Source of the DNA: Devosia sp. LC5
GTDB lineage: Bacteria > Pseudomonadota > Alphaproteobacteria > Rhizobiales > Devosiaceae
Direction: 5' to 3'
DNA length: 64,000 bases
Assembly (NCBI RefSeq): GCF_000735585.1
Contig: NZ_JNNO01000017.1
Location: forward strand, 1 to 64,000
Below are positions 17,963 through 44,741 of this stretch, in pieces. The notes beneath the pieces are model-generated. The model worked only from the letters and a program-made list of their open reading frames with translations. It was not told where the DNA came from and ran no database searches. Within the stretch, counting starts at the first letter, position 1. Each line of letters starts with the position of its first letter. Both the position numbers and the translations under genes were made by a program.

Positions 17963-17971
17963 GAGCGGTTC

Positions 17972-18808: not shown

Positions 18809-18849
18809 CAGGGCTCCAGCAGATGTTGGCCAGCGACCATTTCAATCGA

Positions 18850-19800: not shown

Positions 19801-20035
19801 ATTGCATTCCTTGCCGACCCACATCGACCTATTGCAGTCTAAAACAACGTTATATTACCAACAACTTGCCTGCAACTTTGCTTTTGGGTTTACCTTAATC
19901 TCCGCAACGGCCGTAGTGAGACCTCTCCACCCAAAGCAGGTCGCGGGATAACAACGCCGCTCACATCCCAACATTGGCTTTGCTGGCTCGCACCAGCTAT
20001 CAAGGTCACTCGTGCCCTGCAGGATCAAACGTGCC
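19801..20035. other. Divergent AT-rich intergenic region, polysaccharide operon / lacI-type gene
   Basis: 235 bases separating two divergent transcription units and two functional regions. It is markedly more AT-rich than the rest of the window (19840-19920). It holds AAGGA for the epimerase gene (just upstream of 19800, minus strand), AGGA (20021-20024) before the LacI-type gene, and an AACGTTAT at 19846-19853 that resembles the core of the candidate LacI operator at 29558-29573; the latter match is short and could be chance. Confidence 0.5.
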
Positions 20036-29618: not shown

Positions 29619-30473
29619 TTATTGTCCGGCTGCGGCGCGCAGCAGATTTCTGAGCAGCATGGCCCGCGTCAGCGCTCCGACGGAGCCGTGCGGTGGGGTG
29701 ATCCAACCGGCCACCTGTGCAACGCCCGCAGCGATATCCGAAGTCATCACGCCAGCGACATAGCTGATGCCGACACCGACAACAGCGGCGCCGGGTTTGA
29801 CCATTTCAGCTGTGACCAGATCGGGAATGCCCGCGGCCGAAATGACGATATCGGCGCGGCGTGTGGCTGCCGCCAGATCGCGGGATTGGCTGTGCAGCAG
29901 AGTAACGGTCGCGTCCACACCGCGTTGCGACAGCAGCATGGCCAACGGCCGGCCAACCAGGTTGCCGCGGCCGATGATGGCCACTTCCGCTCCGGCCAAA
30001 GGGATATCGTAGGCCTGCAGCAGAGTGAGGATGGCGGCGGGGGTGCAGGGCAAAAAGCCGGGCTGACCGGCCAGCAGGCGCCCCAGATTGATGGGGTGCA
30101 GGCCATCAATGTCCTTGTCGGGCCGCACGGCCTCGAGCATGGCGGCCTCATCGAGCCCGGCCGGCAGCGGCAATTGCACCATGAAACCGTGGACGGACGG
30201 ATCGGCGTTCAGCGCAGCTATGGCCGCCAGCAGTTCATCGGAGGAGATCGTGGCAGGCAGCCGCATATCCTCGACCGCAATGCCGATCTCGGCACAATCG
30301 GCATGCTTGCGCGCCACATAGCTGGCGCTGGCGGGATCGTCTCCCACCAGCACAGTCGCCATTTTCGGCTGGATGCCGTGCGCGATGAGCCGCGCGGCAT
30401 CCACCTTCATCTCGCCCCGCAGGCGCCCGGCGAGCTTATCGCCGTCGAGCAGAATGGCCTGCGGCTCCGGCAT
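29619..30473 (-). CDS. folD: FolD-like methylenetetrahydrofolate dehydrogenase/cyclohydrolase, copy A
   Basis: 284 residues, the usual FolD length: 5,10-methylene-THF to 10-formyl-THF by NADP-dependent oxidation and hydrolysis. Key catalytic residues are present and fall on the classical numbers: Y52 and K56 in YVARK, Q100 in VQLPLP, D123 in DIDGLHP, and PCTPAAILTLL follows. The cofactor loop IGRGNLVGRPLAMLL is near normal. Divergent points: VVGVGIS where most have VIDVGIN (Asp lost), and TPPHGSVGALT where FolD proteins have TPVPGGVGPMT. It is the last gene of the leftward ABC operon; ATG overlaps the binding-protein stop by one base (TAATG), so translation is coupled. A second, differently altered FolD lies at 34991. 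Confidence 0.9.
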   Translation of the reverse strand: MPEPQAILLDGDKLAGRLRGEMKVDAARLIAHGIQPKMATVLVGDDPASASYVARKHADCAEIGIAVEDMRLPATISSDELLAAIAALNADPSVHGFMVQLPLPAGLDEAAMLEAVRPDKDIDGLHPINLGRLLAGQPGFLPCTPAAILTLLQAYDIPLAGAEVAIIGRGNLVGRPLAMLLSQRGVDATVTLLHSQSRDLAAATRRADIVISAAGIPDLVTAEMVKPGAAVVGVGISYVAGVMTSDIAAGVAQVAGWITPPHGSVGALTRAMLLRNLLRAAAGQ

Positions 30474-31633
30474 TATTTGAGCCCGATGGAGGGATCGATG
30501 AAGCGATTGGTGACAACGCTTTCCGGCGTGACGGCCGGGTCGGCGCGTTCATCGAGCCCACCCTTGACCAGATCGAACAGCGCCGAAACCCGCACCATAT
30601 CGAAATCACCCAAAGTGGCATTGCTGCCGTTGGAGACGACGCCGGAATCGACCAGTGCCTTGGCGGCATAGGTCATCAGTTCGGCATCGGTCTTCCAATA
30701 ACCGGCGCCAAAGCCGCCTTCGTTGAAGGCGACGATGACCCCATTGGCCTCGGCCGGATCGGTGACATAATCCACCTCGGCCTGCTGGATGATAGGCACC
30801 AGCTTTTCTAAGCACGGCGCCAGTTCTTCGAGCCGGTTGGTGGCGACCGAGAGCATGCCGGTATAGATCGAATAACCGACATCGGACATCAGCAGATAAT
30901 CGATCGGCTTGCCCCAATTATTGCCATTAGTAAACTTGTAGACCTCGCTGGTGACGAAGCCCTGATTGAGCCAGGTGCCGTTATTGGCGACGAAATTCTC
31001 GCCATCGCCGCGATAGCCTTCGATGAAGACATCGGCCGGCACACCCTGGTCGACCAGATATTTGCCGAAGGTGCGCTTGATGGTGGAGACATAGATCTTG
31101 CCCTGGCCCGAAGCGGCGAAGGCCTTGAGATCGTCGATGGTCTTGAAGCCTTCGGGATAGGTCGCCTTATCCCAGAACAAAGCCGTGGGCGATTTATCCA
31201 GCGGGCTGACGACGCCGACGACCGGGAATTGCTTGGAGAAGATGAAGGCGTTGTCCAGCTCCTGGAAGCCCAGATGCGGCGTCACGCCGGCTTTGGAATT
31301 GCCCATATAGAGCGCCGAATAGGCGGTTTCGCCATCGCCCAGGCCGACCCCGCCGCCGCCTTCGAGCAGCACAAGATCAATGCCGGTCGAGCCGAGCGGC
31401 CCCTGATATTTGCCGGAGGACATTTCGCCTCCAGCCCCGATCATCTGATAGAGCCCGCCATGTTCGGCCTGGGCCAGCCAATCCTTCTGGATGATGAAGG
31501 GATTGGGGCATATATCGGCCAATGGGGTCGTGTAATGTTCCTTGGCGAAAGCGCCCGGCTCGGCGGCGTGGGCGGCTTGCCCGACGCCGGTGAGCGCGGT
31601 GACGGCGAGCAGTAAGGTCCTGAAGTTCATCAT
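30473..31633 (-). CDS. ABC importer periplasmic binding protein (NitT/TauT-like)
   Basis: 386 residues with a Sec signal peptide (MMNFRTLLLAVTALTG.., AHA-AE site). The permease and ATPase next to it are NitT/TauT type, so this should be the ligand receptor; I recognise no motif naming its ligand. Aromatic- and glycine-rich binding segments (GYRGDGENF, TNGNNWGKP, EGGFGAGYWKTD) and two cysteines (C in DICPNPF and in APCLEK) can be seen. Not similar to SsuA/TauA at the level I can judge. Start at the first of two ATGs (31633 or 31630). Placed between permease and folD in one operon. Confidence 0.85.
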   Translation of the reverse strand: MMNFRTLLLAVTALTGVGQAAHAAEPGAFAKEHYTTPLADICPNPFIIQKDWLAQAEHGGLYQMIGAGGEMSSGKYQGPLGSTGIDLVLLEGGGGVGLGDGETAYSALYMGNSKAGVTPHLGFQELDNAFIFSKQFPVVGVVSPLDKSPTALFWDKATYPEGFKTIDDLKAFAASGQGKIYVSTIKRTFGKYLVDQGVPADVFIEGYRGDGENFVANNGTWLNQGFVTSEVYKFTNGNNWGKPIDYLLMSDVGYSIYTGMLSVATNRLEELAPCLEKLVPIIQQAEVDYVTDPAEANGVIVAFNEGGFGAGYWKTDAELMTYAAKALVDSGVVSNGSNATLGDFDMVRVSALFDLVKGGLDERADPAVTPESVVTNRFIDPSIGLK

Positions 31634-31686
31634 TATTGTCCCATGTGAAGAATTTCGGTGGGCGCGGGTCTGGCTTATCCCTCGCG

Positions 31687-32541
31687 CTACCTCCCCCCCG
31701 ACTCGTGCCATTCTGAAAACAGCCGGTTTCCAAGCCAGCTGAACAGCAGATAGACCGATATCGACAGCATCGACGACACCAGCAATGCGGCATACATCTG
31801 TTCGTATTTGAAATCGATCTTGGCGTTGATCAGCATCTGCCCGAGCCCGCCGGGGCCGGACAGGAAGAACAGTTCCGACACGATGGCCCCGATCACCGCG
31901 AGCCCCGCCGAAATGCGCAGGCCGGCGAACAGCGTGGGCGCCGCCGAGGGAAAACCGGCCTTGATCAGCATGGTGGGCCAGCCGGCCTTTTGCAGGCGGA
32001 ACAGATCAATAATGCTGCGATCAACGCTTTTGAGGCCCAGCAGCAACGTGGTCGGAATGGAAAAGAAGGTGAACAGCGCCACGATCAGCACCTTGGGCAG
32101 AAAGCCGAAGCCGAGCGCCGATTGCAGCAGCGGGATGATCGCCAGGATCGGGATGGATTGCAGCGCGACGAGGTAGGGAAAGATGGCCTTTTCCATGACC
32201 TGGAAGCGGAACATCACCACGCCCAGCAACATGCCGATGGGAATGGAGATCGCCAGCCCTGCCAGCGCGATCGAGAGCGTGGTGGCGGCGGCATTGAACA
32301 ATTGGCTGAGCACTGCAGGCTGGCTGAACGCCTGGGTCCACAGGCCTTCCAGCGTCGGCATCAGGAATTGCCGGTGGGTCTCCAGCCCCGAGCGCGTCCA
32401 GATATAGGCGATGACGACCAGCACGCCCATGAGCAGCGGCGGCAGAAGAGCGGCGGCGGAGCGCTGGGATACGCTGGGCCGCGCGACCACTGGCCTGGCG
32501 AGATAGCGTTCGGTGGCGAGCTTGTGTTGGGATCTTGCCAT
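31687..32541 (-). CDS. ABC importer permease, NitT/TauT (SsuC) type
   Basis: 284-residue inner-membrane subunit with about six transmembrane helices. The PGGLGQMLINAK segment near residues 230-240 is the C-terminal signature of SsuC/TauC/NrtB-like permeases; the EAA-like coupling helix lies in LFRLQKAGWPTMLIKAGFPSA. I use ATG 32539-32541, only 4 bases after the ATPase stop; the open frame to 32649 has an unlikely prefix. Works with the ATPase at 32546 and the binding protein at 30473. Confidence 0.93.
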   Translation of the reverse strand: MARSQHKLATERYLARPVVARPSVSQRSAAALLPPLLMGVLVVIAYIWTRSGLETHRQFLMPTLEGLWTQAFSQPAVLSQLFNAAATTLSIALAGLAISIPIGMLLGVVMFRFQVMEKAIFPYLVALQSIPILAIIPLLQSALGFGFLPKVLIVALFTFFSIPTTLLLGLKSVDRSIIDLFRLQKAGWPTMLIKAGFPSAAPTLFAGLRISAGLAVIGAIVSELFFLSGPGGLGQMLINAKIDFKYEQMYAALLVSSMLSISVYLLFSWLGNRLFSEWHESGGR

Positions 32542-32545
32542 GCTC

Positions 32546-33343
32546 CTAGCCCTCCATCGCATTGCGCAGGGCCAGGGAGATTTCCCCGCAGACTTCGGCA
32601 AAGCCGCTGGTGTAGCGCAATTCAGGCGTGCGCGGCTCGGGGAAGGCAATGTCGAAGCTGGCGACGATCCGGCCGGGCCGCTTGGACATAACCACGACCT
32701 TGGTGGACAGATAAACCGCCTCGGGGATGGAATGGGTGATGAAGAGGCCGGTGAATTTCTGCCTGGTATAGAGCGCGATCAATTCGTCATTGAGCCGCTC
32801 GCGGGTGATTTCATCCAGCGCCCCGAACGGTTCGTCGAACAGAAACACTGCCGGATTGAGCGCGAGCGAGCGCGCCAGCGAAGCCCGCATTTTCATGCCG
32901 CCGGAGAGGCGCCGGGGATAGTGGTTTTCAAACCCCGTCAGGCCCACCAGCTCGATCTGCTCCAGAGCAATGCGGCGGCGTTCGGCGGGGTCGAAGCCGC
33001 GCAGTTCCATCAGCAATTCGACATTAGCCAGCACCTTGCGCCACGGCAAAAGCGTTGCATCCTGAAAGGTATAGCCAAGGCTGTCGCGATCGACCCAAAT
33101 ATCGCCCGAGGTATGGCTCTCAAGACCCGAGGCCAGCTTGAGCAGGGTGGATTTTCCGCAACCGGAGGGGCCGACAATGGAGACGAATTCGCCCGGCTGA
33201 ATGGCAAGCGTCACCGTGTCGAGCGCCTGTGTGCCATCGGGAAAGGTCATCGAGACGGCGTCGAACATCAGGGCGGCATTGCCCGGCAGCCGGTCATTGG
33301 CCGGGGCTTTGTCTGTCTTTGTCTGGGCCAGGGAAGTGGTCAT
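32546..33343 (-). CDS. ABC importer ATP-binding protein, NitT/TauT (SsuB) type
   Basis: 265-residue ATPase. Walker [10 protein letters not shown] near residue 60, the Q-loop TFQDATLLPWRKVL typical of SsuB/TauB/NrtD, signature LSGGMKMRASLARSLAL, Walker [17 protein letters not shown], switch THSIPEAVYLS. ATG 33341-33343 is two bases after the quinone-reductase stop; the upstream open frame is a shadow of that gene. Confidence 0.95.
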   Translation of the reverse strand: MTTSLAQTKTDKAPANDRLPGNAALMFDAVSMTFPDGTQALDTVTLAIQPGEFVSIVGPSGCGKSTLLKLASGLESHTSGDIWVDRDSLGYTFQDATLLPWRKVLANVELLMELRGFDPAERRRIALEQIELVGLTGFENHYPRRLSGGMKMRASLARSLALNPAVFLFDEPFGALDEITRERLNDELIALYTRQKFTGLFITHSIPEAVYLSTKVVVMSKRPGRIVASFDIAFPEPRTPELRYTSGFAEVCGEISLALRNAMEG

Positions 33344-33345
33344 GG

Positions 33346-33927
33346 CTAGAATTTCAGCATTTCGGCGCGGATCCTGGCGATGTAGGCATCGGTGCGTTCC
33401 CGCGTTGCATTGTTGATGTCGTATAACGCGTGATAGCGCACTTTGACCCTTGGGTGGCAGACGACGCGCAAAAAGCGCGTGCCATTCTTGCGTGGCGGAT
33501 CGCCCAGCACGACGGCGCGCCAGCGCTTTGAGCCATAGGTGGTGACGGTCGCCAGCTTCCTGATGTTCTTGAGGCCGGGCGAGACCTGCCCGTCCACCAG
33601 CTTGAACGACACATCGGGCAGGAACACGCGGTCGAAATAACCTTTCAGAATAGCCGGCCAGCCGAAATTCCACACCGGGTGGCACAGCACCAGCCCCTCG
33701 CAGCGTTGCAGCCGCGCGACATAGCCCGCGACTTTGCGCTGATTGATGGCCGTGTCGTGATAGTCGCGCCGGTCCTCTTGCGACAGGACGGGGTCGAAAT
33801 TGTCGGCGTAGAGATCGAGATCGTCCACCTCATGCCCCGCCTGAACGAGGCTCTCCACCGTCACCCGATGCAGGTGCGCAGCAAGACTATCGGCCAGGGG
33901 GTGGGCATAGATAACGTGGACTTTCAT
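33346..33927 (-). CDS. NAD(P)H dehydrogenase (quinone)-like flavodoxin-fold protein
   Basis: 193 residues. KVHVIYAHPLADSLAAHL at the N-terminus is the FMN/FAD phosphate-binding start of KefF/NQO1-type proteins; VLCHPVWNFGWPAILKGYFDRVF near residues 75-97 (given here as PVWNFGWPAILKGYFDRV) is the conserved flavin-binding loop; residues 125-145 hold TTYGSKRW. Such enzymes reduce quinones or other electrophiles by two electrons. First gene of the leftward operon with the ABC importer and folD copy A, which suggests the imported compound is redox-active or its product is. ATG 33925-33927 chosen over the longer frame. Confidence 0.9.
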   Translation of the reverse strand: MKVHVIYAHPLADSLAAHLHRVTVESLVQAGHEVDDLDLYADNFDPVLSQEDRRDYHDTAINQRKVAGYVARLQRCEGLVLCHPVWNFGWPAILKGYFDRVFLPDVSFKLVDGQVSPGLKNIRKLATVTTYGSKRWRAVVLGDPPRKNGTRFLRVVCHPRVKVRYHALYDINNATRERTDAYIARIRAEMLKF

Positions 33928-34013
33928 TCCAATCCTTAGGCTCGTGACGTCGAGGCATGCGAACAGGTTCCGCGCCTGCCAATCAGCAGCCACAGAGCCT
34001 CGCTCCCAATGCG

Positions 34014-34026
34014 TTCGATTATCGAA
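34014..34026. promoter_or_regulatory. Candidate IclR operator 1 (palindrome)
   Basis: TTCGAT-T-ATCGAA, a perfect palindrome of two 6-base arms around one base, 87 bases upstream of the leftward operon start codon. IclR-family proteins bind short inverted repeats of this type. A near-identical site (TTCGATAATCGAT) recurs at 36052-36064. Confidence 0.6.
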
Positions 34027-34146
34027 TTAATGTTCGTTATGTAGAGTCTAAGGCCAGTTTGGCGGCACGGTCAAGCCGATTGATTAACTTGAAGGCCAAA
34101 TCTTGATCTGCACAATATATAGGCATACTTATGGAGCGCCGCTCGC

Positions 34147-34174
34147 TAATCGAACGATTGATCTATTATCGAAC
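34147..34174. promoter_or_regulatory. Candidate IclR site 2 (direct repeat)
   Basis: TAATCGAAC and TTATCGAAC, 19 bases apart start to start (about two helical turns), 31 bases before the IclR ATG. Position suits autoregulation. Confidence 0.5.
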
Positions 34175-34205
34175 ATCCCTAAGATGATCTTGATTTGGGG
34201 GTTGC

Positions 34206-34982
34206 ATGGACATGCGCAGGCTGGACGCGGACGACAAGGAAGTTTCGCTGACCTTTGCCAAGGGCCTGGAGGTCATCTGCGCGTTCGACGGCAAGAACCG
34301 CGTGCTGACCATGGCCGAAGTCGCCCAGAAAACCAATCTCAGCCGGGCGGTGGCGCGGCGGTTGGTGCGCACGCTCGAACAACTCGGCTATCTCGCCAGC
34401 GACCGTGGCCGCTATGAGCTCACCCCCCATGTGCTGCGCCTGACCCAGGGTTTTGTCGAAGGTCGCGGCATTTCGCAGATCATCCAGCCCATCCTGCGGC
34501 TCGCCTCCGACGAAGTTGGCGAGGCCGTGTCCTTCAGCATGCTGGACGATACCGAGGCGGTCTACGTCGCCCATTCCTATGGCCCGGCGCGCTTCACCCT
34601 CAATATGGTCACCACCGGCAGCCGCATTCCGCTGCTGCCCACCGCCGCCGGCCGCGCCATGCTGGCCTTCCTCGACGCAGAGACCCGCGACGCGATCATT
34701 GCCGATGCGCCGCTGACCGCCCACACCGCGCACACCGAAACCAGCAAGGACAAGCTGATCGCCCAGCTCGGCGCGATCCGCGCCAAGGGCTATTGCTTCG
34801 CCGATGCCGAATATGTCGAGGGCGTGGATTCCCTCGCCGTGCCCGTATTTGGCGCAGGCGGCAAGGTCATCGGCGCCATCTCGATCATCTTCCCGCAGAG
34901 CCGTTACCAGCCTGAGCATATCGAGCTGGTGATGTTCCCCAAACTGCGCCAATGCGCGGCCGATATCGGCCTGACCTTCTAG
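34206..34982 (+). CDS. IclR family transcriptional regulator
   Basis: 258-residue IclR regulator. Winged helix in residues about 15-80 (SLTFAKGLEVICAFDG, MAEVAQKTNLSRAVARRLVRTLEQLGYL); effector domain with IPLLPTAAGRAMLAFL, RAKGYCFADAEYVEGVDSLAVPVF and GAISIIFP, the usual ligand-pocket signatures of PcaU/PcaR-like members. These often control catabolism of aromatic compounds as activators or repressors. It overlaps nothing and ends 8 bases before the GTG of folD copy B, so the two are probably one transcript, divergent from the flavodoxin-ABC-folD A operon. Confidence 0.93.
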   Translation: MDMRRLDADDKEVSLTFAKGLEVICAFDGKNRVLTMAEVAQKTNLSRAVARRLVRTLEQLGYLASDRGRYELTPHVLRLTQGFVEGRGISQIIQPILRLASDEVGEAVSFSMLDDTEAVYVAHSYGPARFTLNMVTTGSRIPLLPTAAGRAMLAFLDAETRDAIIADAPLTAHTAHTETSKDKLIAQLGAIRAKGYCFADAEYVEGVDSLAVPVFGAGGKVIGAISIIFPQSRYQPEHIELVMFPKLRQCAADIGLTF

Positions 34983-34990
34983 GGCGTCCG

Positions 34991-35830
34991 GTGCAGACAC
35001 GCATATTCTCCGGCCTCGACCTGGCCCGCGGCATGCACGCCGAAACCTTGCGTCGCGCGCAATCTGCGGGCATTCGGCCCACCTGCTCCGTGCTGCTCGA
35101 CGCCACCAATGCCGGTGCGCGCGCCTACGCCGCCCGGCAGCAGGAGATGGCGGAACAGGCCGGCATTGCGTTGACCTTGCTGGCCTATGAGAGCGACCCG
35201 CCCGCGATCTACCGGCAATTGGCCGCGCTGCGCGACGACCCCGCCGTGGATGCCGTGATGACGCTCTACCCCCTGCCCCAAGGCGTCGACGCCATTGCGG
35301 CCGCGCTGGCGATTGGCGCGGAAAAAGACGTCGATGGCCTGCACCCATTGAATGCCGGAAACCTGCTGCTGGGCGCACCAAGCCGGGGTGCTGCGACGGC
35401 ACAGGCCAGTGTAATCTGCGCCGAGACCCTGTTTGGCGATCTGGCCGGGGCGAATGTCGCCGTGGTCGGCGCCTCCGCCGTGGTCGGCCGGCCACTCACC
35501 ATGATGCTGCTCGATCGCAATGCCAGTGTCTCGGCAGGACACGTGGCAACGCGCGATCTGGCGGCACTGACGCGGCAGGCGGAAATCGTCGTGAGCGCCA
35601 CGGGCATAGCCGGTCTGATCACCGCCGACCACATCGCCCAAGGCGCTATCCTGATCGACGTCGGCATCAGTCGCCGCAATCGACAGATCCTGGGCGATGT
35701 CGACCTCGCCAGCGTCGAGGGCAAGGCCGCCGCGGTCACCCATGCGCCCGATGGCGTGGGGCCGATCACCACCGCCTGCCTGTTCCGCAATATAGTGGAT
35801 GCGGCGATCAGCAGGCACAACAAACCCTAG
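34991..35830 (+). CDS. FolD-like protein, copy B, lacking cyclohydrolase residues
   Basis: 279 residues from a GTG at 34991. It is FolD by the motifs DVDGLHPLNAG, VVGASAVVGRPLTMMLLDR, IDVGIS and APDGVGPIT. But the catalytic tetrad is broken: the Y-x3-K lysine is Gln50 (YAARQ), the Gln of VQLPLP is Leu92 (TLYPLP), and the PCTP motif is absent. From published work on human FolD (recalled, not searched), this lysine and glutamine are needed for cyclohydrolase activity. Tyr46 and Asp115 are kept. Likely a dehydrogenase-only or folate-binding protein, or one that works on a different folate. Sits downstream of the IclR gene, copy A lies at the other end of the locus. Confidence 0.88.
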   Translation: MQTRIFSGLDLARGMHAETLRRAQSAGIRPTCSVLLDATNAGARAYAARQQEMAEQAGIALTLLAYESDPPAIYRQLAALRDDPAVDAVMTLYPLPQGVDAIAAALAIGAEKDVDGLHPLNAGNLLLGAPSRGAATAQASVICAETLFGDLAGANVAVVGASAVVGRPLTMMLLDRNASVSAGHVATRDLAALTRQAEIVVSATGIAGLITADHIAQGAILIDVGISRRNRQILGDVDLASVEGKAAAVTHAPDGVGPITTACLFRNIVDAAISRHNKP

Positions 35831-36081: not shown

Positions 36082-36714
36082 ATGCTCAAGCGCAATGCTC
36101 GCACGCTTGCCGCCATATTGACCATATTGCCCTGCCTGCCCGTTGCGCTATCCGCCGCCGAAGTCCGGCCCGGTGTCGAATATTCCGGCAAGATCGAGGA
36201 AGCCGGCAGCCCTCGGGCACAGTTTCAGGATCTGATCTTCGATCTCGCCAGTTCCTGGGCTAGGTGCAATGGCGATCTGATGGCCAAGACCGTGGCGCCC
36301 GATGTCGATTTCTCTTACCCCACCAGCCATATTACCGGGGTCGACGCTATCCTCGCCGACCTGAAACTGTTCTGCGAGCAGGCGAGCGACACGAGTATTT
36401 TCCTGCCCGCCGACGCCTTCTATATCGACACCGAAACCGGCCGCGTCGCCGCCGAATTGCAATTCCGCACCTTCCAGCGCGGCAATCGCCAGGTGGTCAA
36501 CGATGTCTGGGTGGCCACTGTCAAGGACGGCCAAATCAGCGTTATCAAGGAATATCTCGATGGCCGGGTGAAGAATTTGCAGGCGCAGGGCATTCTCGAG
36601 CTGGAGGAAAGCCCGGACTTCCTCACCCCGTGGCCGCCGCGCACCGAGGCCTGGAAGGATTGCTTCCCCGTGCTCAAGGTCGAGCCGACCAATAGCTGCC
36701 CGGCACCAAAATAG
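36082..36714 (+). CDS. Secreted SnoaL-like protein
   Basis: 210 residues with a Sec signal peptide (residues about 1-25, ALSAAE cleavage). The mature domain looks like a SnoaL/NTF2-like alpha+beta cone: ARAQFQDLIFDLASSWARCNGDLM helix (visible as LIFDLASSWARCNGDLMAK), then FSYPTSHITGVDAILADL, and RQVVNDVWVATVKDGQISVIKEYLDG, the usual strand pattern. Four cysteines remain in the mature part. Function unknown: SnoaL folds range from cyclases to binding proteins. The IclR-type palindrome in its promoter ties it to the FolD/ABC locus; GGAG at 36070 is the RBS. Confidence 0.8.
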   Translation: MLKRNARTLAAILTILPCLPVALSAAEVRPGVEYSGKIEEAGSPRAQFQDLIFDLASSWARCNGDLMAKTVAPDVDFSYPTSHITGVDAILADLKLFCEQASDTSIFLPADAFYIDTETGRVAAELQFRTFQRGNRQVVNDVWVATVKDGQISVIKEYLDGRVKNLQAQGILELEESPDFLTPWPPRTEAWKDCFPVLKVEPTNSCPAPK

Positions 36715-36778: not shown

Positions 36779-36833
36779 TTTGTCGAACTGTCACAGAGTT
36801 CAGGTAACGCATGGGAACCAGTGTGGGCCCCCT

Positions 36834-37538
36834 ATGCGTTGCGCGATCTATTTTGTTCCTCCGGCCGATGATCCGCTGCAGATTGCCGCGGCGCAATGGC
36901 TGCGGCGCGACCCGTATACCGGCGCTCGGGTGAGCTGGCCGGTGGAGGGATTGGTGGAAACCGACCACGCCTTCCTCACTGCCGTTCCGCGCCGCTTCGG
37001 CTTTCACGGCACGTTGAAGGCGCCGTTCCGGCTGGCGCCTGAATACGAAATCGGCGACCTGCAAGCGGCGCTCGACCGCTTCTGCCGCCGCTTGCCTTCT
37101 ATCACCGTGCCCGAAATGCGCATTGCGCCGATCCAGAATGCCTTTGCGCTGGTGCCGGCCGTGCCTATGGTCGAACTCAACGACCTGGCGGCCGATTTCG
37201 TCACCGCCTTTGATATCTATCGCAGCCCGGTCACAGATCTCGATCTGGCGCGGGGCGATATCGGGCGCTTCACCGGCCAGCAGTTCGATAATCTGCGCAA
37301 TTGGGGTCATCCCAATGTGTTCGACCAGTTCCGCTTTCATATGACGCTGACCGGCCCCATCGATGAGCTGGAACGTGATCACGTCGCGCTGGTATTGCGG
37401 CGCCATTTCGGCGACCTTGCCACGGCGCCATTGCATATCGGGCAAGTTGCCCTGTTCGTGGAGCCGGAGCCCAATGCGCCGTTCTTCGTCCATTCCAGTC
37501 ACCAGTTTACCACTCAACGCCGACGCAAGATTGCTTGA
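36834..37538 (+). CDS. 2H phosphoesterase (DUF1045), phosphonate metabolism
   Basis: 234-residue RPE-type 2H phosphoesterase regularly found in C-P lyase operons. The two catalytic H-x-T-L motifs are GFHGTLKAPF near residue 60 and FRFHMTLTG near residue 175, the spacing expected for this fold. It probably opens a cyclic phosphate such as ribose cyclic phosphate formed by the C-P lyase or cleans up a side product, but this has not been settled for most homologs. Start ATG 36834 (MRCAIYFVPP) rather than the ORF start 18 codons upstream. Stop is 3 bases before phnM. Confidence 0.88.
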   Translation: MRCAIYFVPPADDPLQIAAAQWLRRDPYTGARVSWPVEGLVETDHAFLTAVPRRFGFHGTLKAPFRLAPEYEIGDLQAALDRFCRRLPSITVPEMRIAPIQNAFALVPAVPMVELNDLAADFVTAFDIYRSPVTDLDLARGDIGRFTGQQFDNLRNWGHPNVFDQFRFHMTLTGPIDELERDHVALVLRRHFGDLATAPLHIGQVALFVEPEPNAPFFVHSSHQFTTQRRRKIA

Positions 37539-37541
37539 TCC

Positions 37542-38690
37542 ATGACGCAGAAGAATGCCGCCGAAACCGTTCTCACCAATGCCAGCATCGTCCTGGCCGA
37601 CGAAGTCGTTACCGGGGCGATCCTGCTGCGCGACGGCGTGATTGCCGATATCTCGGCGGCTTCGGCGCATGGCGAGGACATGGATGGCGACTATGTCATT
37701 CCGGGTCTGGTCGAGTTGCATACCGATCACCTCGAAAACCATTATGCGCCGCGCCCCAAAGTACGCTGGAACGCCATTGCCGCCGTTCAGGCGCATGATG
37801 CCCAGGTCGCAGCTTCCGGCATTACCACCGTGTTCGACGCGCTGCGCGTGGGGACGGACGAGCAGGCGGATATGGGCGACACCGAAATGCTGGTACTGGC
37901 CGACGCCATCGCTGCCGGCAAGGCATCGGGGCGCCTGCGGGCCGATCATTTCATTCATCTGCGCTGCGAAGTTTCGGCGCCTGATTGCCTGCGCGGTTTT
38001 GAACAGCTGCAAGACCATGCCCTGGTGCGGCTGGCCTCGCTGATGGATCACGCGCCGGGGCAGCGCCAGTTCGCCAATCTGGATGCCTATCGCGTCTATT
38101 ATCAAGGCAAGCTCAAGATGAGCGATCAGGCGCTGGCCGACTTCTCGACGCGCCGCATTCGCGACTCCGAGCAGCATGCCGGCCCGCATCGCGCGGCGAT
38201 TTCGCAATTCTGCCAGGCCAACGATATCGTATTGGCCAGCCATGACGATGCCACGCTCGGCCATGTCGATGAGGCGATTGCGCAGGGCATCGATGTGGCT
38301 GAATTCCCCACGACCGTGGAAGCCGCCCGCGCGTCGCATCAGGCCGGCATGGCTGTGCTGATGGGCGCACCCAATGTGGTGCGCGGCTCCTCGCATTCGG
38401 GCAATGTCTCGGCGCGCGAACTGGCCGAGCATGGCTTGCTCGACATCCTCTCGTCCGACTACATCCCCTTCAGCCTGCTGCAGGCAGCTTTCTCGCTGGG
38501 CGACAGTGTCGATGCCATCACCCTGCCCCACGCCGTGCGGCTGGTGTCCAAGCACCCGGCACAGGCCGCGGGGCTGGATGATCGCGGTGAAATCGCCCAG
38601 GGCAAGCGCGCCGATCTGGTGCGTGTGCGGGTGCAGGATGGCATTCCGATCGTGCGCACCGTCTGGCGCGAAGGGACCCGGGTGATATGA
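37542..38690 (+). CDS. phnM: Alpha-D-ribose 1-methylphosphonate 5-triphosphate diphosphatase
   Basis: 382 residues, amidohydrolase superfamily. PhnM removes pyrophosphate from the 5-triphosphate intermediate of the C-P lyase pathway. Metal ligands are visible in VELHTDHLENH near residue 58, HDDATLGHVDEA near 233 and the late DYIPFSLL motif with catalytic Asp. A 4-base overlap joins it to phnN. Confidence 0.96.
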   Translation: MTQKNAAETVLTNASIVLADEVVTGAILLRDGVIADISAASAHGEDMDGDYVIPGLVELHTDHLENHYAPRPKVRWNAIAAVQAHDAQVAASGITTVFDALRVGTDEQADMGDTEMLVLADAIAAGKASGRLRADHFIHLRCEVSAPDCLRGFEQLQDHALVRLASLMDHAPGQRQFANLDAYRVYYQGKLKMSDQALADFSTRRIRDSEQHAGPHRAAISQFCQANDIVLASHDDATLGHVDEAIAQGIDVAEFPTTVEAARASHQAGMAVLMGAPNVVRGSSHSGNVSARELAEHGLLDILSSDYIPFSLLQAAFSLGDSVDAITLPHAVRLVSKHPAQAAGLDDRGEIAQGKRADLVRVRVQDGIPIVRTVWREGTRVI

Positions 38691-39265
38691 GTTCGGACGC
38701 CTCGGCTTCCGGTGCATTCGTCGCCGTGGTCGGCCCCAGTGGATCGGGCAAGGATTCGCTGATCGACTTTGCCCGCCAGCGGCTGGCCGGACGAGCTGAA
38801 TTTACCTTTGTACGCCGCATTGTCACCCGCCCGGCCGATCGTGCGGCGGAAGATCATGACAGCCTGAGCGAAGCCCATTTCGAGGCGCTGGCGCAATCCA
38901 ACGGGCTGGCACTGCATTGGCAGGCGCATGGCCTGCGCTATGGCCTGCCGCGCTCCATTGACAGCGATATCGAGGCTGGCCGCGTGGTCATCGCCAATGT
39001 ATCGCGGCAGGTGATCGGGGAGGCCGCTGCCCGCTACCGGCGGGTCATCGTGGCCAATATTTCGGCCCGTCCCGAAATCATCGCCCAGCGCCTGGCGGCA
39101 CGGGGCCGCGAGGACGCCGAGGCCATCCGCCAGCGTCTGGCACGTCAGCTCGATGTCGCCGTGCCGGGCGGCGAAAGCGTAGAGATCGACAATTCCGGTC
39201 CCTTACAGGAAGCGGGCGAGCATTTTCTTGGCCTGTTGCAACAGGCCCAGGCGGAACGAGTCTAG
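38687..39265 (+). CDS. phnN: Ribose 1,5-bisphosphate phosphokinase
   Basis: 192 residues, guanylate-kinase-like fold. P-loop VVGPSGSGKDS near residue 13-22. Makes PRPP from ribose 1,5-bisphosphate at the end of the C-P lyase route. Stops against phnF, which is convergent and overlaps the last 4 bases. Its operon with phnM and the 2H phosphoesterase is separate from phnGHIJKL. Confidence 0.95.
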   Translation: MSSDASASGAFVAVVGPSGSGKDSLIDFARQRLAGRAEFTFVRRIVTRPADRAAEDHDSLSEAHFEALAQSNGLALHWQAHGLRYGLPRSIDSDIEAGRVVIANVSRQVIGEAAARYRRVIVANISARPEIIAQRLAARGREDAEAIRQRLARQLDVAVPGGESVEIDNSGPLQEAGEHFLGLLQQAQAERV

Positions 39266-39999
39266 ACCACCAGTTCCATGAGGTCTGCCGGAAAGCGGCT
39301 CAACGCATAGAGCAAGGGCTTGCCGCCGAGGTCCGTATCGACCGCCTCCGACACCAGCAGAATGGCGCCGGGGGCGAGTTTCAGCGTTGCCGTCTCGTCG
39401 GCATCCGCGTGGCGGGCGGATATACGCGTGCTGGCGCGGGCATAGTCGGCAATGCCGTAACTCGCCAGCGTTGCCGTGATGGACGGATTTTCCGCAAAGC
39501 GCACCGCAAAATCTGGAAAGGCCGCATAGCTCAGCCAGATGCTGGCGCGCGACATCGGGCGGTTGTCGGCCGATGACAGGGTTTCCAGCCGCGTCACCTT
39601 GGTCCCCGCCCGCAGTCCCAGCGCCGCGGCCACGCTGCCCGTCGCATTTTCCAGCCGCGAAGACAGCATGTCGCGCGAGATCGTTGCAGCCTGCCCGGCC
39701 AGGTTCTCCGAAAACCGGGTCCGCTTGCCAATGCGATAGCTGACGCGGCGGGCCTGGTCGACAAAGCTACCCCGGCCCTGCTCGGTGCGGATGACGCCCT
39801 CCGCCTGCAGCGCTGCCAGCGCCCGGCGCACCGTGTGCCGATTGGCAGAAAAGCGTTCCGCCAGCTCGGTTTCCCCGGGCAGCCGATCGCCCGGCTGGCG
39901 CTTGCCGCCAACGATGTCGAGCCGGATGGCATCGGCAATGCGCCGCCACAGCGCGACGCCGCTGAGATGGGATTCGGACGAGGACTCGGTTTTTGTCAT
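39262..39999 (-). CDS. phnF: GntR/HutC family phosphonate regulator
   Basis: 245-residue GntR regulator. Winged helix with RQPGDRLPGETELAERFSANRHTVRRALAALQ around residues 34-65 (visible as LPGETELAERF and NRHTVRRAL), then a UTRA effector domain. Length matches PhnF of E. coli. Divergent from phnG; a perfect inverted repeat in the 79-base gap is its likely operator. Confidence 0.93.
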   Translation of the reverse strand: MTKTESSSESHLSGVALWRRIADAIRLDIVGGKRQPGDRLPGETELAERFSANRHTVRRALAALQAEGVIRTEQGRGSFVDQARRVSYRIGKRTRFSENLAGQAATISRDMLSSRLENATGSVAAALGLRAGTKVTRLETLSSADNRPMSRASIWLSYAAFPDFAVRFAENPSITATLASYGIADYARASTRISARHADADETATLKLAPGAILLVSEAVDTDLGGKPLLYALSRFPADLMELVV

Positions 40000-40043
40000 T
40001 GCAAATTCACACAGCGCGCCTAAGACCAGAATCAGGATTTATG

Positions 40044-40063
40044 TTGTCTAGTTTATTAGACAA
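40044..40063. promoter_or_regulatory. Probable PhnF operator
   Basis: TTGTCTAGTTTATTAGACAA: two perfect 7-base inverted arms around six bases. It sits 16 bases before the phnG ATG and 45 bases before the phnF start, where it can control both divergent genes. No Pho box (CTGTCAT repeats) is seen in this gap. Confidence 0.75.
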
Positions 40064-40078
40064 GTAGAGGCAAGCGAT

Positions 40079-40516
40079 ATGACGATAGAACCGAGGCGGT
40101 TGGCACTAAATGCCCTGGCAGCGGCCGAGAGCGCGGCCCTCGCCCAGCATTGGACCGACTGGACCGAAAAGCCCGAATTCCGCGCGCTGCGTGGTCCCGA
40201 AACGGGGCTGGTCATGGTGCGCGGCCGCGCTGGCGGTGGTGGCGCGCCGTTCAATCTGGGCGAGGCCAGTGTGAGCCGGGCAAGCGTCCGGCTCGCCAGC
40301 GGCGAAGTGGGGCACGGTTATTGCCTGGGCCGAGACCTCGAAAAGGCGCGGCTGATTGCGGTGTTCGATGCGCTGTTCCAGCGCGATCCGGAGCGGGTGG
40401 AGGCCGAGGTGCTGGCTCCGCTGCGGGCCGTTGTGAGCCAGGGCGACCAGCAGCGGCGCGAGGAATCGGCCGCCACCAAGGTCGATTTCTTCACCATGGT
40501 GCGAGGGGACGTTTGA
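40079..40516 (+). CDS. phnG: C-P lyase core subunit PhnG
   Basis: 145 residues; E. coli PhnG has 150. With PhnH, PhnI and PhnJ it forms the C-P lyase core complex that converts phosphonate and ATP to ribose 1-phosphonate 5-triphosphate and cleaves the C-P bond. Recognised by position and by the GEASVSRASVRLASGEVGHGYCLGRD segment (as ARLASGEVGHGYCLGR-like). ATG 40079, promoter area holds the PhnF palindrome. Ends in a 1-base overlap (TGATG) with phnH. Confidence 0.93.
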   Translation: MTIEPRRLALNALAAAESAALAQHWTDWTEKPEFRALRGPETGLVMVRGRAGGGGAPFNLGEASVSRASVRLASGEVGHGYCLGRDLEKARLIAVFDALFQRDPERVEAEVLAPLRAVVSQGDQQRREESAATKVDFFTMVRGDV

Positions 40517-41115
40517 TGGACAATCTGATGCTCGATGGCGGCTTTGCCGACCCGGTCATGCAGGCCCAGCAGGGGTTCCGCGCCCTGATGGATGCGCTGG
40601 CCAATCCGGGGACAATTCAGCAACTGGCGCTCGGCCTCACCCCGCCAGCGCCGCTGACGCCGGAACTGGCAGCGGTGCTGCTGACACTATGCGATCACGA
40701 TACGGGCGTATGGCTGGAGCCTGATCTGGCGACAGAAGCGGTAACCGGCTGGTTGCGGTTCCATATCGGGTCGCCCCTCAATGTGGCACGGGACCAGGCG
40801 CAATTCGCGGTGTTACGCGACAGCAATACCCTGCAGTTGAACGGCTTTTCGCTCGGCACGGATATTTATCCCGACCGCTCGACCACGGTGATCGTGGCCG
40901 TTCCCGCGCTGAGCGGCGGCGATGCCCTCGTGCTGAAGGGGCCGGGGATCGAACATAGCGTCGAGATATCCCCGCTCGGCCTGCCCGGTGATTTCCTCGA
41001 GCAATGGGCGGAAAACCGTGCGCAGTTCCCGCGTGGGGTCGACCTGCTGCTGGTGGCCGATGGAGCGGTGATCGGGCTACCGCGGACCACGCGAATTTCA
41101 GGGAAGGACGCTTAA
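40516..41115 (+). CDS. phnH: C-P lyase core subunit PhnH
   Basis: 199 residues; E. coli 194. PLP-transferase-like fold without PLP, dimer in the core complex. GGFADPVMQAQQGFRALMDALANPG is the family N-terminus (visible as ADPVMQAQQGFRALMDA) and RGVDLLLV near the end. Overlaps phnG, and its TAA is followed at once by phnI ATG. Confidence 0.94.
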   Translation: MDNLMLDGGFADPVMQAQQGFRALMDALANPGTIQQLALGLTPPAPLTPELAAVLLTLCDHDTGVWLEPDLATEAVTGWLRFHIGSPLNVARDQAQFAVLRDSNTLQLNGFSLGTDIYPDRSTTVIVAVPALSGGDALVLKGPGIEHSVEISPLGLPGDFLEQWAENRAQFPRGVDLLLVADGAVIGLPRTTRISGKDA

Positions 41116-42201
41116 ATGTATGTGGCCGTAAAAGGCGGGGAAGCCGCCATTGCCAATGCCCATGCTCTGCTGGCCGACCGGCGGCGGGGTGATCGGCAGG
41201 TGCCAGCGCTCGGCATCGAGCAGATCATCCAGCAGCTCGGCCTCGCCGTCGATCGCTGCATGGCCGAAGGCTCGCTCTATGACCGGGAACTGGCGGCGCT
41301 CGCCATTATCCAGTCTCGGGGCGATCTGATCGAGGCGATTTTCCTGGTGCGCGCCTATCGCACCACCCTGCCCCGGTTCGGCTATTCGGTGCCGATCGAC
41401 ACCGCCAATATGCTGATCGAGCGCCGGGTTTCGGCGACGTTCAAGGACCTGCCGGGCGGGCAAATGTTGGGACCGACCTTTGACTATACCCACCGACTGC
41501 TCGACCCGGTGGTGGCCGAGGGCGGCGATGTTGCGGCGCCAGTCCGGCGGCCGGCCGATCCGGAACAGGCGCCTCGCGTAACGGATCTGCTGGCTCATGA
41601 AGGGCTGATCGAGCCGGATACCACCCACGACGACAAGCCGGACATCGGCGATCTGACGCGCGAGCCCTTGCAATACCCGCTGGACCGCGATTTGCGGCTG
41701 CAGGCATTGGCGCGGGGCGATGAAGGGTTCCTGCTCGCGCTCGGCTATTCGACACAGCGCGGTTACGCCAGAACGCACCCCTTTGTCGGTGAAATCCGCA
41801 TCGGGGAAGTCGAGGTGGAACTCGACATTGCCGAGCTGGGCTTTGCCGTCAGCCTGGGCCGTGTGCGGGTCACCGAATGCCAGATGGTCAACCAGTTCAA
41901 GGGCTCGGCCAAGGTGCCCCCGCAATTCACCCGCGGCTATGGGCTGGTATTCGGCCAGTCCGAACGCAAGGCCATGTCGATGTCGCTATGCGACCGGGCG
42001 CTGCGGGCCCGCGAATTCGGCGAGGACGTGGTGGCCCCGGCGCAGGACGAGGAATTCGTCATCAGCCACCTCGACAATGTGCAGTCCACCGGCTTCGTCG
42101 AGCACCTCAAGCTGCCCCATTACGTCGATTTCCAGGCCGAACTCGACGTGGTGCGGCGCATGCGGGCCGAGCAGGAAACCCAGAAGGAAGCGGCGGAATG
42201 A
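41116..42201 (+). CDS. phnI: C-P lyase core subunit PhnI
   Basis: 361 residues; E. coli 354. Supplies the nucleosidase activity that replaces adenine of ATP by the phosphonate. YVAVKGGEAAIANAHALL is the standard start, TLPRFGYS and GPTFDYTHRLLD are conserved. Four-base overlap (ATGA) with phnJ. Confidence 0.96.
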   Translation: MYVAVKGGEAAIANAHALLADRRRGDRQVPALGIEQIIQQLGLAVDRCMAEGSLYDRELAALAIIQSRGDLIEAIFLVRAYRTTLPRFGYSVPIDTANMLIERRVSATFKDLPGGQMLGPTFDYTHRLLDPVVAEGGDVAAPVRRPADPEQAPRVTDLLAHEGLIEPDTTHDDKPDIGDLTREPLQYPLDRDLRLQALARGDEGFLLALGYSTQRGYARTHPFVGEIRIGEVEVELDIAELGFAVSLGRVRVTECQMVNQFKGSAKVPPQFTRGYGLVFGQSERKAMSMSLCDRALRAREFGEDVVAPAQDEEFVISHLDNVQSTGFVEHLKLPHYVDFQAELDVVRRMRAEQETQKEAAE

Positions 42202-43079
42202 GCCTGATCCCGAGCTACAATTTTGCCTATCTCGATGAGCAGACCAAAAGGATGATCCGACGGTCAATCCTCAAGGCCATTGCCATTCCCGGCTATCAGG
42301 TGCCGTTTGCCAGCCGCGAAATGCCCATGCCCTATGGCTGGGGCACGGGGGGCGTGCAGGTGACAGCGGCGATCATCGGGCCGAGCGACGTGCTCAAGGT
42401 GATCGACCAGGGCGCCGATGACACGACCAATGCGGTGTCGATCCGCGCCTTCTTCGCCAAGGTGGCCAACGTCGCGACCACCACCCATACGGCCGATGCA
42501 ACCATCATCCAGACCCGCCACCGCATTCCCGAAAGGCCGCTACAGGCCGGCCAGGTGCTGGTCTATCAGGTGCCGATCCCCGAGCCGCTGCGCTTCCTCG
42601 AGCCACGCGAAACCGAGACACGCAAAATGCATGCGCTCGAGGAATATGGGCTGATGCATGTCAAACTCTATGAGGACATTGCCAAGCATGGCCAGATCGC
42701 CACGACCTATGCCTATCCGGTCAAGGTCGAGGGCCGCTACGTGATGGATCCCTCGCCCACGCCCAAATTCGACAATCCAAAAATGCACATGTCGCCGGCC
42801 CTGCAATTGTTCGGCGCCGGGCGCGAAATGCGCATCTATGCCGTGCCGCCCTTCACCGAAGTGGTGAGCCTCGATTTTGAAGATCACCCCTTCGAAATCC
42901 AGCACTTTACCCAGCCCTGCGCGCTATGCGCTGCTACCGGCGTCTATCTCGACGAGGTGATCCTGGATGATCACGGCGGGCACATGTTCGTGTGCTCGGA
43001 CACCGACAATTGCGAAGAGCGCCGCGCCCAAGGCCATCGTGGCCACCTGAGCGGGGAAGAACTGGAGGCGGCGGAATGA
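42198..43079 (+). CDS. phnJ: C-P lyase radical SAM subunit PhnJ
   Basis: 293 residues; E. coli 281. Radical SAM enzyme that cleaves the C-P bond. The four cysteines in C-x2-C-x21-C-x5-C (CALCAATG ... VCSDTDNC, about residues 243-277) show exactly the spacing of E. coli PhnJ, with three binding the 4Fe-4S cluster and one that forms the thiyl. NFAYLDEQTKRMIRRSILKA is the start. Overlaps phnK by 4 bases. Confidence 0.97.
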   Translation: MSLIPSYNFAYLDEQTKRMIRRSILKAIAIPGYQVPFASREMPMPYGWGTGGVQVTAAIIGPSDVLKVIDQGADDTTNAVSIRAFFAKVANVATTTHTADATIIQTRHRIPERPLQAGQVLVYQVPIPEPLRFLEPRETETRKMHALEEYGLMHVKLYEDIAKHGQIATTYAYPVKVEGRYVMDPSPTPKFDNPKMHMSPALQLFGAGREMRIYAVPPFTEVVSLDFEDHPFEIQHFTQPCALCAATGVYLDEVILDDHGGHMFVCSDTDNCEERRAQGHRGHLSGEELEAAE

Positions 43080-43852
43080 GCGAGCAACCCCTGCTGCGGG
43101 TCGAAGGCCTGAGCAAATATTACGGCAACCGCCTGGGCTGCAAAGATGTGTCGTTCGAGCTATGGCCCGGCGAAGTGCTGGCCATTGTGGGCGAAAGCGG
43201 ATCGGGCAAGACGACGCTGCTCAATTGCCTCTCCACCCATCTCGAACCCAGTGCGGGCCGCACGGAATATCGGATGCGCGACGAGGTCTGGCGCAATCTT
43301 TATGAGCTGAGCGAGGCCGAACGGCGCTTTCTGATGCGCACCGATTGGGGCTTTGTGCACCAGAACCCGGCCGATGGGCTGCGCATGACGGTATCGGCCG
43401 GCGCCAATGTGGGCGAGCGGCTGATGGCGGTGGGCGACCGGCATTATGGCCATATCCGGGAAACGGCCATCGATTGGCTCGGCCGCGTGGAAATCGCCGC
43501 CGACCGGATCGACGATCAACCGCGCTCCTTCTCGGGCGGCATGCGCCAGCGCCTGCAGATTGCCCGTAATCTCGTGACGGGGCCAAGGCTGGTGTTCATG
43601 GACGAGCCGACTGGCGGGCTAGACGTATCGGTGCAGGCGCGCCTGCTCGATCTGTTGCGCGGGCTGGTGGGCGAGCTCGGGCTGGCGGCAATCATCGTCA
43701 CCCACGATCTGGCCGTAGCCCGGCTGCTGAGCCACCGCATGATGGTGATGAAGGATGGGCGGGTAATCGAAGCGGGCCTAACCGACCGCGTGCTCGACGA
43801 TCCGCGCGAGCCTTATACGCAGCTGCTTGTGTCTTCGATTTTGCAGGTGTGA
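43076..43852 (+). CDS. phnK: C-P lyase ABC-like ATPase PhnK
   Basis: 258 residues; ABC-type ATPase that docks on the C-P lyase core (PhnJ) and is not itself a transporter. Walker A GESGSGKTT near residue 38, signature FSGGMRQRLQIAR, Walker B VFMDEPTGGLD, switch VTHDLAVARLL. A repeat of 184 bases separates it from phnL. Confidence 0.94.
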   Translation: MSEQPLLRVEGLSKYYGNRLGCKDVSFELWPGEVLAIVGESGSGKTTLLNCLSTHLEPSAGRTEYRMRDEVWRNLYELSEAERRFLMRTDWGFVHQNPADGLRMTVSAGANVGERLMAVGDRHYGHIRETAIDWLGRVEIAADRIDDQPRSFSGGMRQRLQIARNLVTGPRLVFMDEPTGGLDVSVQARLLDLLRGLVGELGLAAIIVTHDLAVARLLSHRMMVMKDGRVIEAGLTDRVLDDPREPYTQLLVSSILQV

Positions 43853-43869
43853 GGGCGATGCGAAAGAAA

Positions 43870-44003
43870 CCCCTCACCCGTCTCGACCTCTGGCCGATCC
43901 ACCCTCTCCCTCAAGGGGAGAGGGGAGGCCCGGTGGCCGTTCAAACTCTGAGCCCCCCTTCTCCTCTTGAGGGAGAAGGTGCCCCAAAGGGGCGGATGAG
44001 GGG
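43870..44003. repeat. Palindromic repeat between phnK and phnL
   Basis: Two hairpins inside an outer inverted repeat (CCCTCACCC ... GGATGAGGGG): CCCTCTCC / GGAGAGGG and CCTTCTCC / GGAGAAGG, then GCCCCAAAGGGGCGGATGAGG. Similar elements are at 51236-51281, 59685-59810 and 61036-61092. Here it splits a co-transcribed operon, so it may fold in the mRNA and alter phnL expression. Confidence 0.8.
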
Positions 44004-44036
44004 TCAACGCACTGTCCAAACTTACGGAGCCACGCT

Positions 44037-44741
44037 GTGACCGCCGCCCTCTCCATCCGCAACCTCTCCAAGACCTTCACCATGCACCTGCGCGATGGCG
44101 TGGTGCTCCCCGTCGTGGAGAATGTCGATTTTGACGTGCATGCCGGGGAATGCGTCGTCCTTGGCGGACCATCGGGTGCCGGCAAAAGCTCCATTCTCAA
44201 AATGGTCTATGGCAATTATGGCGTCGACGGCGGTGCGATCCTGCTAGTCCATGACGGCGCCGAGATCGATCTGGCGACGGCCGATCCGCGGCTAGTGCTG
44301 ACGCTACGGCGCGATACCATTGCCTATGTCAGCCAATTCCTGCGCACCGTACCGCGTGTTTCGGCGCTCGATGTGGTGGCCGAGCCGCTGGTGATCCGTG
44401 GGGTCGATAAAAGTGAGGCGCAGGAACGGGCCAAGGCGCTGCTGGCGCGGCTCAATCTGCCGGAGCGGCTCTGGTCCCTGCCACCGGCGACCTTTTCGGG
44501 CGGCGAGCAGCAGCGCGTCAATATTGCGCGCGGTTTTATCACCGATCACAAAGTGCTGCTGCTGGATGAGCCGACAGCGTCGCTGGACGCGACCAATCGC
44601 GCCGTCGTGGTCGAGATGATCGCGCAGAAAAAAGCGGCGGGCACGGCCCTGCTCGGCATTTTCCATGATGAGGACGTGCGGCATCAGGTGGCCGACCGGA
44701 TTGTCGACGTGACCGCTTTTGCCCCGAGGATTGCCGCATGA
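44037..44741 (+). CDS. phnL: C-P lyase ABC-like ATPase PhnL
   Basis: 234 residues; E. coli 226. ABC ATPase that binds above PhnK in the C-P lyase complex. GTG start after ACGGAG. Walker A GGPSGAGKSS, FSGGEQQRVNIARG, Walker B VLLLDEPTASLD. Ends in a 4-base overlap with the transferase gene. Confidence 0.93.
   Translation: MTAALSIRNLSKTFTMHLRDGVVLPVVENVDFDVHAGECVVLGGPSGAGKSSILKMVYGNYGVDGGAILLVHDGAEIDLATADPRLVLTLRRDTIAYVSQFLRTVPRVSALDVVAEPLVIRGVDKSEAQERAKALLARLNLPERLWSLPPATFSGGEQQRVNIARGFITDHKVLLLDEPTASLDATNRAVVVEMIAQKKAAGTALLGIFHDEDVRHQVADRIVDVTAFAPRIAA

Follow-up and report, generated by a model that had tools for sequence, protein, structure and literature searches.

Two FolD paralogs of separate lineages share a divergent transporter unit in Devosia sp. 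LC5, and one lacks residues tied to cyclohydrolase activity

A 64,000-nucleotide stretch of Devosia sp. LC5 (contig NZ_JNNO01000017.1, positions 1 to 64,000 of the forward strand; hereafter the window) carries two folD genes, copy A and copy B, on opposite arms of a single divergent unit with a 278-bp center, together with genes for an ATP-binding cassette (ABC) transporter and an IclR-family regulator. We tentatively read this locus as a horizontally assembled, IclR-controlled catabolic unit in which an importer is combined with two accessory FolDs, copy B being predicted to act as a dehydrogenase without cyclohydrolase activity. The reading is built on the observed gene order, active-site residues, phylogenetic grouping, selection, and lack of a match in the genome to FTCD_C, a family whose members can presumably act as methenyl-tetrahydrofolate (methenyl-THF) cyclohydrolases (FchA). 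FolD is generally regarded as a housekeeping enzyme of uniform type and as a drug target, and our analysis suggests that a single catabolic unit has here recruited FolD paralogs of two lineages, one of which lacks the residues linked to cyclohydrolase activity. The two genes are as follows:

29619 to 30473, minus strand: FolD copy A, 284 amino acids (translation, Pfam, and alignment)
34991 to 35830, plus strand: FolD copy B, 279 amino acids, GTG start 8 bp past the IclR gene

Active-site residues of the two copies

Both proteins contain the two FolD Pfam domains, at 181.3 bits (PF02882) and 127.6 bits (PF00763) for copy A and 150.9 and 45.2 bits for copy B, all above the gathering cut-offs of 27 (PF02882) and 32.8 (PF00763). 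Neither reaches an NCBIfam FolD cut-off among the best 25 of 30 models, copy A scoring at best 339.8 where 401 is needed and copy B 187.4 where 396 is needed. The original prediction, made from the sequence alone, had described two folD genes here with altered active sites; the genes and the residues it named proved correct, and alignment with E. coli FolD confirmed changed Lys and Gln columns in copy B and a changed PGGVGP loop and Asp229 in copy A. In their own numbering, copy A carries Y52, K56, Q100, and D123 and copy B carries Y46, Q50, and L92; at the E. coli columns Y50/K54/Q98/D121, these read Y/K/Q/D and Y/Q/L/D. The active-site Tyr, Lys, Gln, and Asp are all present in the five A sequences compared, and Lys and Gln are lost (K54Q, Q98L) in all three B sequences, which retain Tyr and Asp.

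Seven residues are given as key in the human enzyme (Tyr52, Lys56, Gln100, Leu101, Asp125, Gly273, and Gly276; PMC3368264). We matched these to E. coli columns ourselves. Copy A retains all seven (Y50, K54, Q98, L99, D121, G261, and G264), and copy B retains three (Y50, D121, and G264) and loses four (K54Q, Q98L, L99Y, and G261D). The last two, affecting the Leu after the Gln and the first Gly of PGGVGP, go beyond the changes first described. Copy B also reads AATA around the PCTP position, and its GAS-VVGRP stretch is retained in the window and in genome G083, with SAS for GAS in genome G097.

Complementary losses had been proposed for the two copies. The part concerning copy B stands, since it lost the Lys and Gln that have been given a cyclohydrolase role (PMC3338484 and PMC3368264, with PMC9173628 more cautious). 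The part concerning copy A does not, because that copy keeps all seven listed residues, and complementarity is thus unsupported. The lysine is described as the general acid/base of the cyclohydrolase step, positioned by the glutamine (PMC3338484), and the pair also supports hydride transfer (PMC3368264, PMC6443876). PMC9173628 considers the role of the lysine in the dehydrogenase step to be mainly binding and leaves a catalytic role possible. From its residues, copy B is likely, but not certain, to have lost cyclohydrolase activity.

Copy A is altered elsewhere. It has Gly at E. coli D229 (the Asp of VIDVGIN) and HGSVGA in place of PGGVGP, and all five A sequences share D229G and lack the Pro at 260. 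Among 84 distinct aligned sequences, P260 is absent from all seven without D229 (five A sequences, Streptomyces canus, and Rhodococcus erythropolis) and present in every one of the 77 with D229. Because the two changes always occur together (7 of 7), they look like coherent remodeling of the active site and not decay. The paired change probably arose at least twice, because S. canus groups with a Streptomyces sequence that retains both D229 and P260 (support 97/90 in a tree of 27 sequences). The S. canus folD adjoins purU and an aminomethyltransferase gene, and that of R. erythropolis has an IclR gene on one side and an NTF2-like gene on the other, with aromatic-ring genes nearby. The paired Asp229/Pro260 change may mark an active-site variant, probably of multiple origin.

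Phylogeny and selection

In the 27-sequence tree, copy B falls in a group with five lysine-less FolDs of actinobacteria (support 97/95), and copy A groups with other actinobacterial FolDs (99/99). We picked these 27 from the 84, omitting the Prevotellaceae, G115 contig 12, and Rhodococcus 2G sequences, which have the longest branches, and most proteobacterial sequences. Forcing A and B into a single clade lowers the fit (approximately unbiased test, p-AU 0.03), which makes it unlikely that A and B are two halves of one gene that parted recently. Their separate tree groups and this test likewise speak against a local duplication of a single FolD as the source of both copies.

Purifying selection acts on both copies. 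By the NG86 method, the ratio of nonsynonymous to synonymous substitution rates (dN/dS) was 0.089, 0.144, 0.137, and 0.193 for copy A in four comparisons with relatives and 0.115 in each of two comparisons for copy B. Neighboring genes ranged from 0.015 to 0.183, omitting the broken binding-protein gene of G503, whose value (0.309) was not used since the alignment crosses three in-frame stops. YN00 gave 0.047–0.144 for copy A and 0.070–0.074 for copy B. Compared with G097 and G083, both FolD proteins evolve faster than the ATPase and IclR proteins, partly through higher dS. Decay of A or B is unsupported, given the low dN/dS and the residue states common to relatives.

Separate cyclohydrolase genes beside deviant FolDs

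Deviations at K54 or Q98 occur in seven sequences that do not belong to the window's own family. Six have lost the Lys (Nocardia, Nonomuraea, two Embleya, Paenarthrobacter YJN-5, and a Prevotellaceae metagenome-assembled genome), and the seventh, from G115 contig 12 and of the same genus as the window, keeps the Lys and has Gln98 replaced by Glu. An FTCD_C gene lies in the fetched flank of six of the seven, within about 60 bp in five; that of Nocardia is ~3.3 kb from the FolD gene on the opposite strand. Pfam identified five of the six, and the gene of Embleya NBC_00888 was recognized by tblastn alone (66% identity to the Nonomuraea gene). No FTCD_C was found within 8 kb on either side of the Paenarthrobacter YJN-5 FolD, the one member of the five-member lysine-less clade nearest copy B that does not have FTCD_C nearby. 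The number of independent lineages behind the seven deviant sequences is perhaps two or three, and most of the sequences came from searches with copy B as the query. In G115 (contig 12), FolD occupies about 9510–10346 and FTCD_C about 10373–10891.

The flanks read at the loci of 103 Lys/Gln-intact sequences (74 from the main alignment and 29 from a phylum profile search) contained no FTCD_C when four FTCD_C queries were run in tblastn at 1e-3, a search that may miss diverged genes; the Prevotellaceae gene escaped the first query when that was used by itself. The Devosia sp. LC5 genome itself has no FTCD_C (PF04961) match at E 0.001, and the family was matched in 2 of 14 control genomes. Changed Lys or Gln together with a neighboring FTCD_C gene would offer a simple, testable rule for finding single-function bacterial FolDs.

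Distribution and the third folD

The third, normal folD that the original prediction had thought worth seeking is present on another contig (G000:C1:133955-134806), with YVAQK, VQLP, CTP, VIDVGIN, and PGGVGP all in place, so that copies A and B are accessory. Copy B (>500 bits) occurs in three of 121 family genomes, that of the window included, always together with A and always accompanied by a SnoaL/NTF2-like gene (3 of 3). The unit of copy A and the transporter was found in five genomes, two of which (G103 and G503) carry A, the binding protein, permease, and ATPase without the oxidoreductase, IclR, B, and SnoaL genes, and neither genome yielded a B ortholog. G503 is 84% complete; its binding-protein frame has three stops, and its PhnM and sugar-binding genes are split across frames, probably through assembly errors. 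Because of those stops, G503 gives weaker support for A occurring without B, and G103 is the clean case.

In 396 other genomes of the order, the limit of E 1e-45 left two matches to copy B, each at 159 bits and 35–36% identity with Lys and Gln intact. A profile search of 398 genomes of the phylum at a lax limit returned ordinary FolDs as the best 29 loci outside the window, all 29 intact, and one scan of genome contigs for B orthologs gave four loci.

Locus layout and neighboring genes

The other features of the locus are as follows:

30473 to 31633, minus strand: ABC transporter substrate-binding protein (role from position and annotation of a distant relative)
31687 to 32541, minus strand: ABC transporter permease (Pfam scan)
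32546 to 33343, minus strand: ABC transporter ATPase (Pfam scan)
33346 to 33927, minus strand: Flavodoxin_2 / NAD(P)H oxidoreductase (Pfam scan; 50.5% identity to an Agrobacterium plasmid-cluster oxidoreductase)
33928 to 34205, no strand: intergenic region of 278 bp between the divergent arms, candidate shared promoter/operator
34206 to 34982, plus strand: IclR-family regulator (Pfam and NCBIfam scans)
36082 to 36714, plus strand: SnoaL/NTF2-like protein (Pfam; candidate signal peptide judged by eye)
36780 to 45355, plus strand (PhnF minus): phosphonate (C-P lyase) gene run, an adjoining neighbor whose function is probably different

The minus-strand arm runs oxidoreductase, ATPase, permease, binding protein, the successive gaps being 2, 4, and 53 bp; the ATG of copy A shares 1 bp with the stop codon of the binding-protein gene (TAATG). 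We chose the starts of the binding-protein, permease, ATPase, and oxidoreductase genes. Upstream of the copy B start there is an ATG at 34952, whose frame is open in the window and closed in both orthologs. For the IclR protein, which would control the unit, the top NCBIfam model is the PcaR/PcaU/PobR family, with a score under its cut-off.

The phosphonate run presumably comprises DUF1045, PhnM, PhnN, PhnF (minus strand), PhnG to PhnL, and a hexapeptide transferase. The A-transporter unit stands beside DUF1045-PhnM in all five genomes that have it, directly in G103 and G503; in the other three, the oxidoreductase-IclR-B-SnoaL block separates the two. This constant neighborhood led us to consider whether FolD A is functionally linked to the phosphonate operon. 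However, PhnM-like matches occur in 72 of 75 genomes of the genus, and among 12 further PhnM loci (tblastn 1e-10, ~20 kb), the A-transporter unit was found at one (G503) and not at 11, and the five neighborhoods look like one inherited arrangement. Phosphonate binding-protein and permease genes were not seen by eye in the run, for which no dedicated search was made. A second PhnM-like gene lies on contig C34 of the genome. Elsewhere in the window, positions 8428–19824 hold glycosyltransferase, epimerase, and ABC ATPase genes and resemble a surface-polysaccharide cluster.

Relatives of the transporter

The putative binding protein owes its assignment to its place beside a permease and an ATPase and to the annotation of a distant relative. 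Despite a plain ABC operon, it has no Pfam or NCBIfam match at 0.001, and its best Protein Data Bank (PDB) chain scores E 0.63. No match at 1e-10 was found in 396 other genomes of the order, a sample that excluded the known carrier relatives. On plasmids, two matches were found, in Nitratireductor OM-1 (69% identity) and Agrobacterium (24.5%). The Nitratireductor cluster also has relatives of the permease (66%), ATPase (75%), and IclR protein (58%), together with two FAD enzymes, a cytosine-deaminase-like amidohydrolase, a creatininase-family gene, a hydantoinase, and a Rid protein. The Agrobacterium relative adjoins the 50.5% relative of the flavodoxin-fold oxidoreductase. Because both relatives sit in catabolic-looking clusters, the transporter may be a catabolic importer, its substrate perhaps a nitrogen heterocycle or an N-methyl compound. 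In the Devosia genome, the Nitratireductor cytosine-deaminase-like protein has one relative (39% identity, contig C1), and the GcvT C-terminal family has one match (contig C18).

Interpretation

In the unit that we tentatively favor, the importer would take up a small molecule, and the two accessory FolDs would process one-carbon units released from it. Copy A would be a bifunctional methylene-THF dehydrogenase/cyclohydrolase of the actinobacterial type with a remodeled loop. Copy B, descended from another actinobacterial lineage, whose FolDs lack the lysine, would be a methylene-THF dehydrogenase without cyclohydrolase activity, and the methenyl-THF it made would be hydrolyzed by A or by the housekeeping FolD. 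A and B would then probably be specialized helpers and not interlocking halves of one enzyme. The activities, substrate, regulation, and direction of transfer in this scheme are predictions.

Several observations weigh against it. In the flanks read, a folD is missing from both the Nitratireductor and the Agrobacterium clusters, and the link between transporter and folate is weaker for it. Among the neighbors scanned, none was identified as a demethylase or as another enzyme that releases one-carbon units, in an analysis that did not extend to searches for purU or sarcosine oxidase. The flanks of the Lys/Gln-intact loci were short, with a median shorter side of ~1.5 kb and 17 of 72 reaching 3 kb on both sides. 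In the full 84-sequence tree, the copy B group, which then includes G115 contig 12, has support of 96/68, its bootstrap unsettled, and the copy B branch is long (2.0 changes per column). PMC9173628 denies both Lys and Gln the role of base in the cyclohydrolase step that it models. Finally, the Gln and a Gly that the lysine-less relatives keep are missing from copy B, and Lys together with Gln is also said to aid hydride transfer, so it is possible that dehydrogenase activity was lost as well.

That last point leads to the strongest rival, which we regard as somewhat unlikely: copy B may no longer be a folate enzyme, serving instead as a pseudo-enzyme, a regulator, or a binder of another ligand through its retained Rossmann domain. 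The loss of four of the seven listed residues, including that Gly, is consistent with this, as are a long branch under purifying selection and the genome's lack of an FTCD_C match. The human MTHFD1L protein provides a precedent, its FolD region being described as without dehydrogenase or cyclohydrolase activity (PMC11064299). However, the folate-positioning Tyr and Asp are retained in all three B sequences and GAS-VVGRP in two of them.

Considerably less plausible is a pair of ordinary bifunctional paralogs, kept for gene dosage or differing cofactor use. The intact catalytic residues of A fit this, as do the 316 plasmid records (of 72,556) with matches to A, a number of which are large replicons and may bear the main folD; the losses in B, shared by all three orthologs and including the general acid/base lysine, do not. 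A long shot is that B has changed from a FolD into a new enzyme or a sensor, directed at the imported compound or a modified folate, with the processing of one-carbon units falling to A as its counterpart; such a two-FolD unit would have put the folate dehydrogenase fold to a new use. Least probable is an A-B heterodimer splitting the two reactions, as originally suggested: FolD is a dimer and B occurs solely with A, but an obligate pair is unlikely because two of five A-transporter genomes (G103 and, with its broken binding-protein frame, G503) have A without B, A retains all listed residues, and a joint clade is disfavored.

Comparison with known systems

Both copies share their two Pfam domains with bifunctional FolDs such as those of E. 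coli, the M. tuberculosis type (PDB 2c2x), and the dehydrogenase/cyclohydrolase (DC) domain of human MTHFD1. Copy A matches 2c2x, which we take to be M. tuberculosis FolD, over residues 6–281 (5.9e-81) and keeps the catalytic residues, differing by D229G and the altered PGGVGP loop, whereas B lacks the Lys and Gln. The lysine-less FolDs nearest B (Nonomuraea, two Embleya, Nocardia, and Paenarthrobacter YJN-5) have likewise lost the lysine and read PATA for PCTP; B has additionally lost the Gln and one Gly, and four of these five have a flanking FTCD_C, whereas B's genome has no match. As proposed for B, the methylene-THF dehydrogenases of yeast (MTD1) and Peptostreptococcus productus are described as monofunctional. 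Copy B gave no PDB match to the yeast structure 1edz at E 0.001.

An accessory role for FolD in catabolism is already established: the nicotine plasmid pAO1 carries MABO, FolD, and PurU in a catabolic operon (PMC6214936). The original statement that FolD is normally a single housekeeping dimer was consequently too strong. In Paenarthrobacter CZY1, purU, an FAD oxidoreductase gene, and folD adjoin. Unlike in pAO1, a demethylating oxidase and PurU were not identified among the scanned genes flanking A and B, with purU and sarcosine oxidase unsearched genome-wide. R. erythropolis plasmid pLRE138 (L127, 5080-7298) shares part of the layout, with IclR, FolD, and NTF2-like genes together beside aromatic-ring genes. 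Its FolD has lost D229 and P260 as in A and kept Lys and Gln; it is weakly sister to A in the 27-sequence tree (84/62) and falls outside A's immediate group in the 84-sequence tree. The pLRE138 IclR is 29% identical to that of the window, and no ABC transporter is among the genes listed. Among the literature titles listed, none describes a locus such as that of Devosia sp. LC5, which is not proof that it is unpublished. Set beside these systems, two features look new: one unit brings together FolDs of two lineages, and copy B shows losses on this scale without a partner cyclohydrolase.

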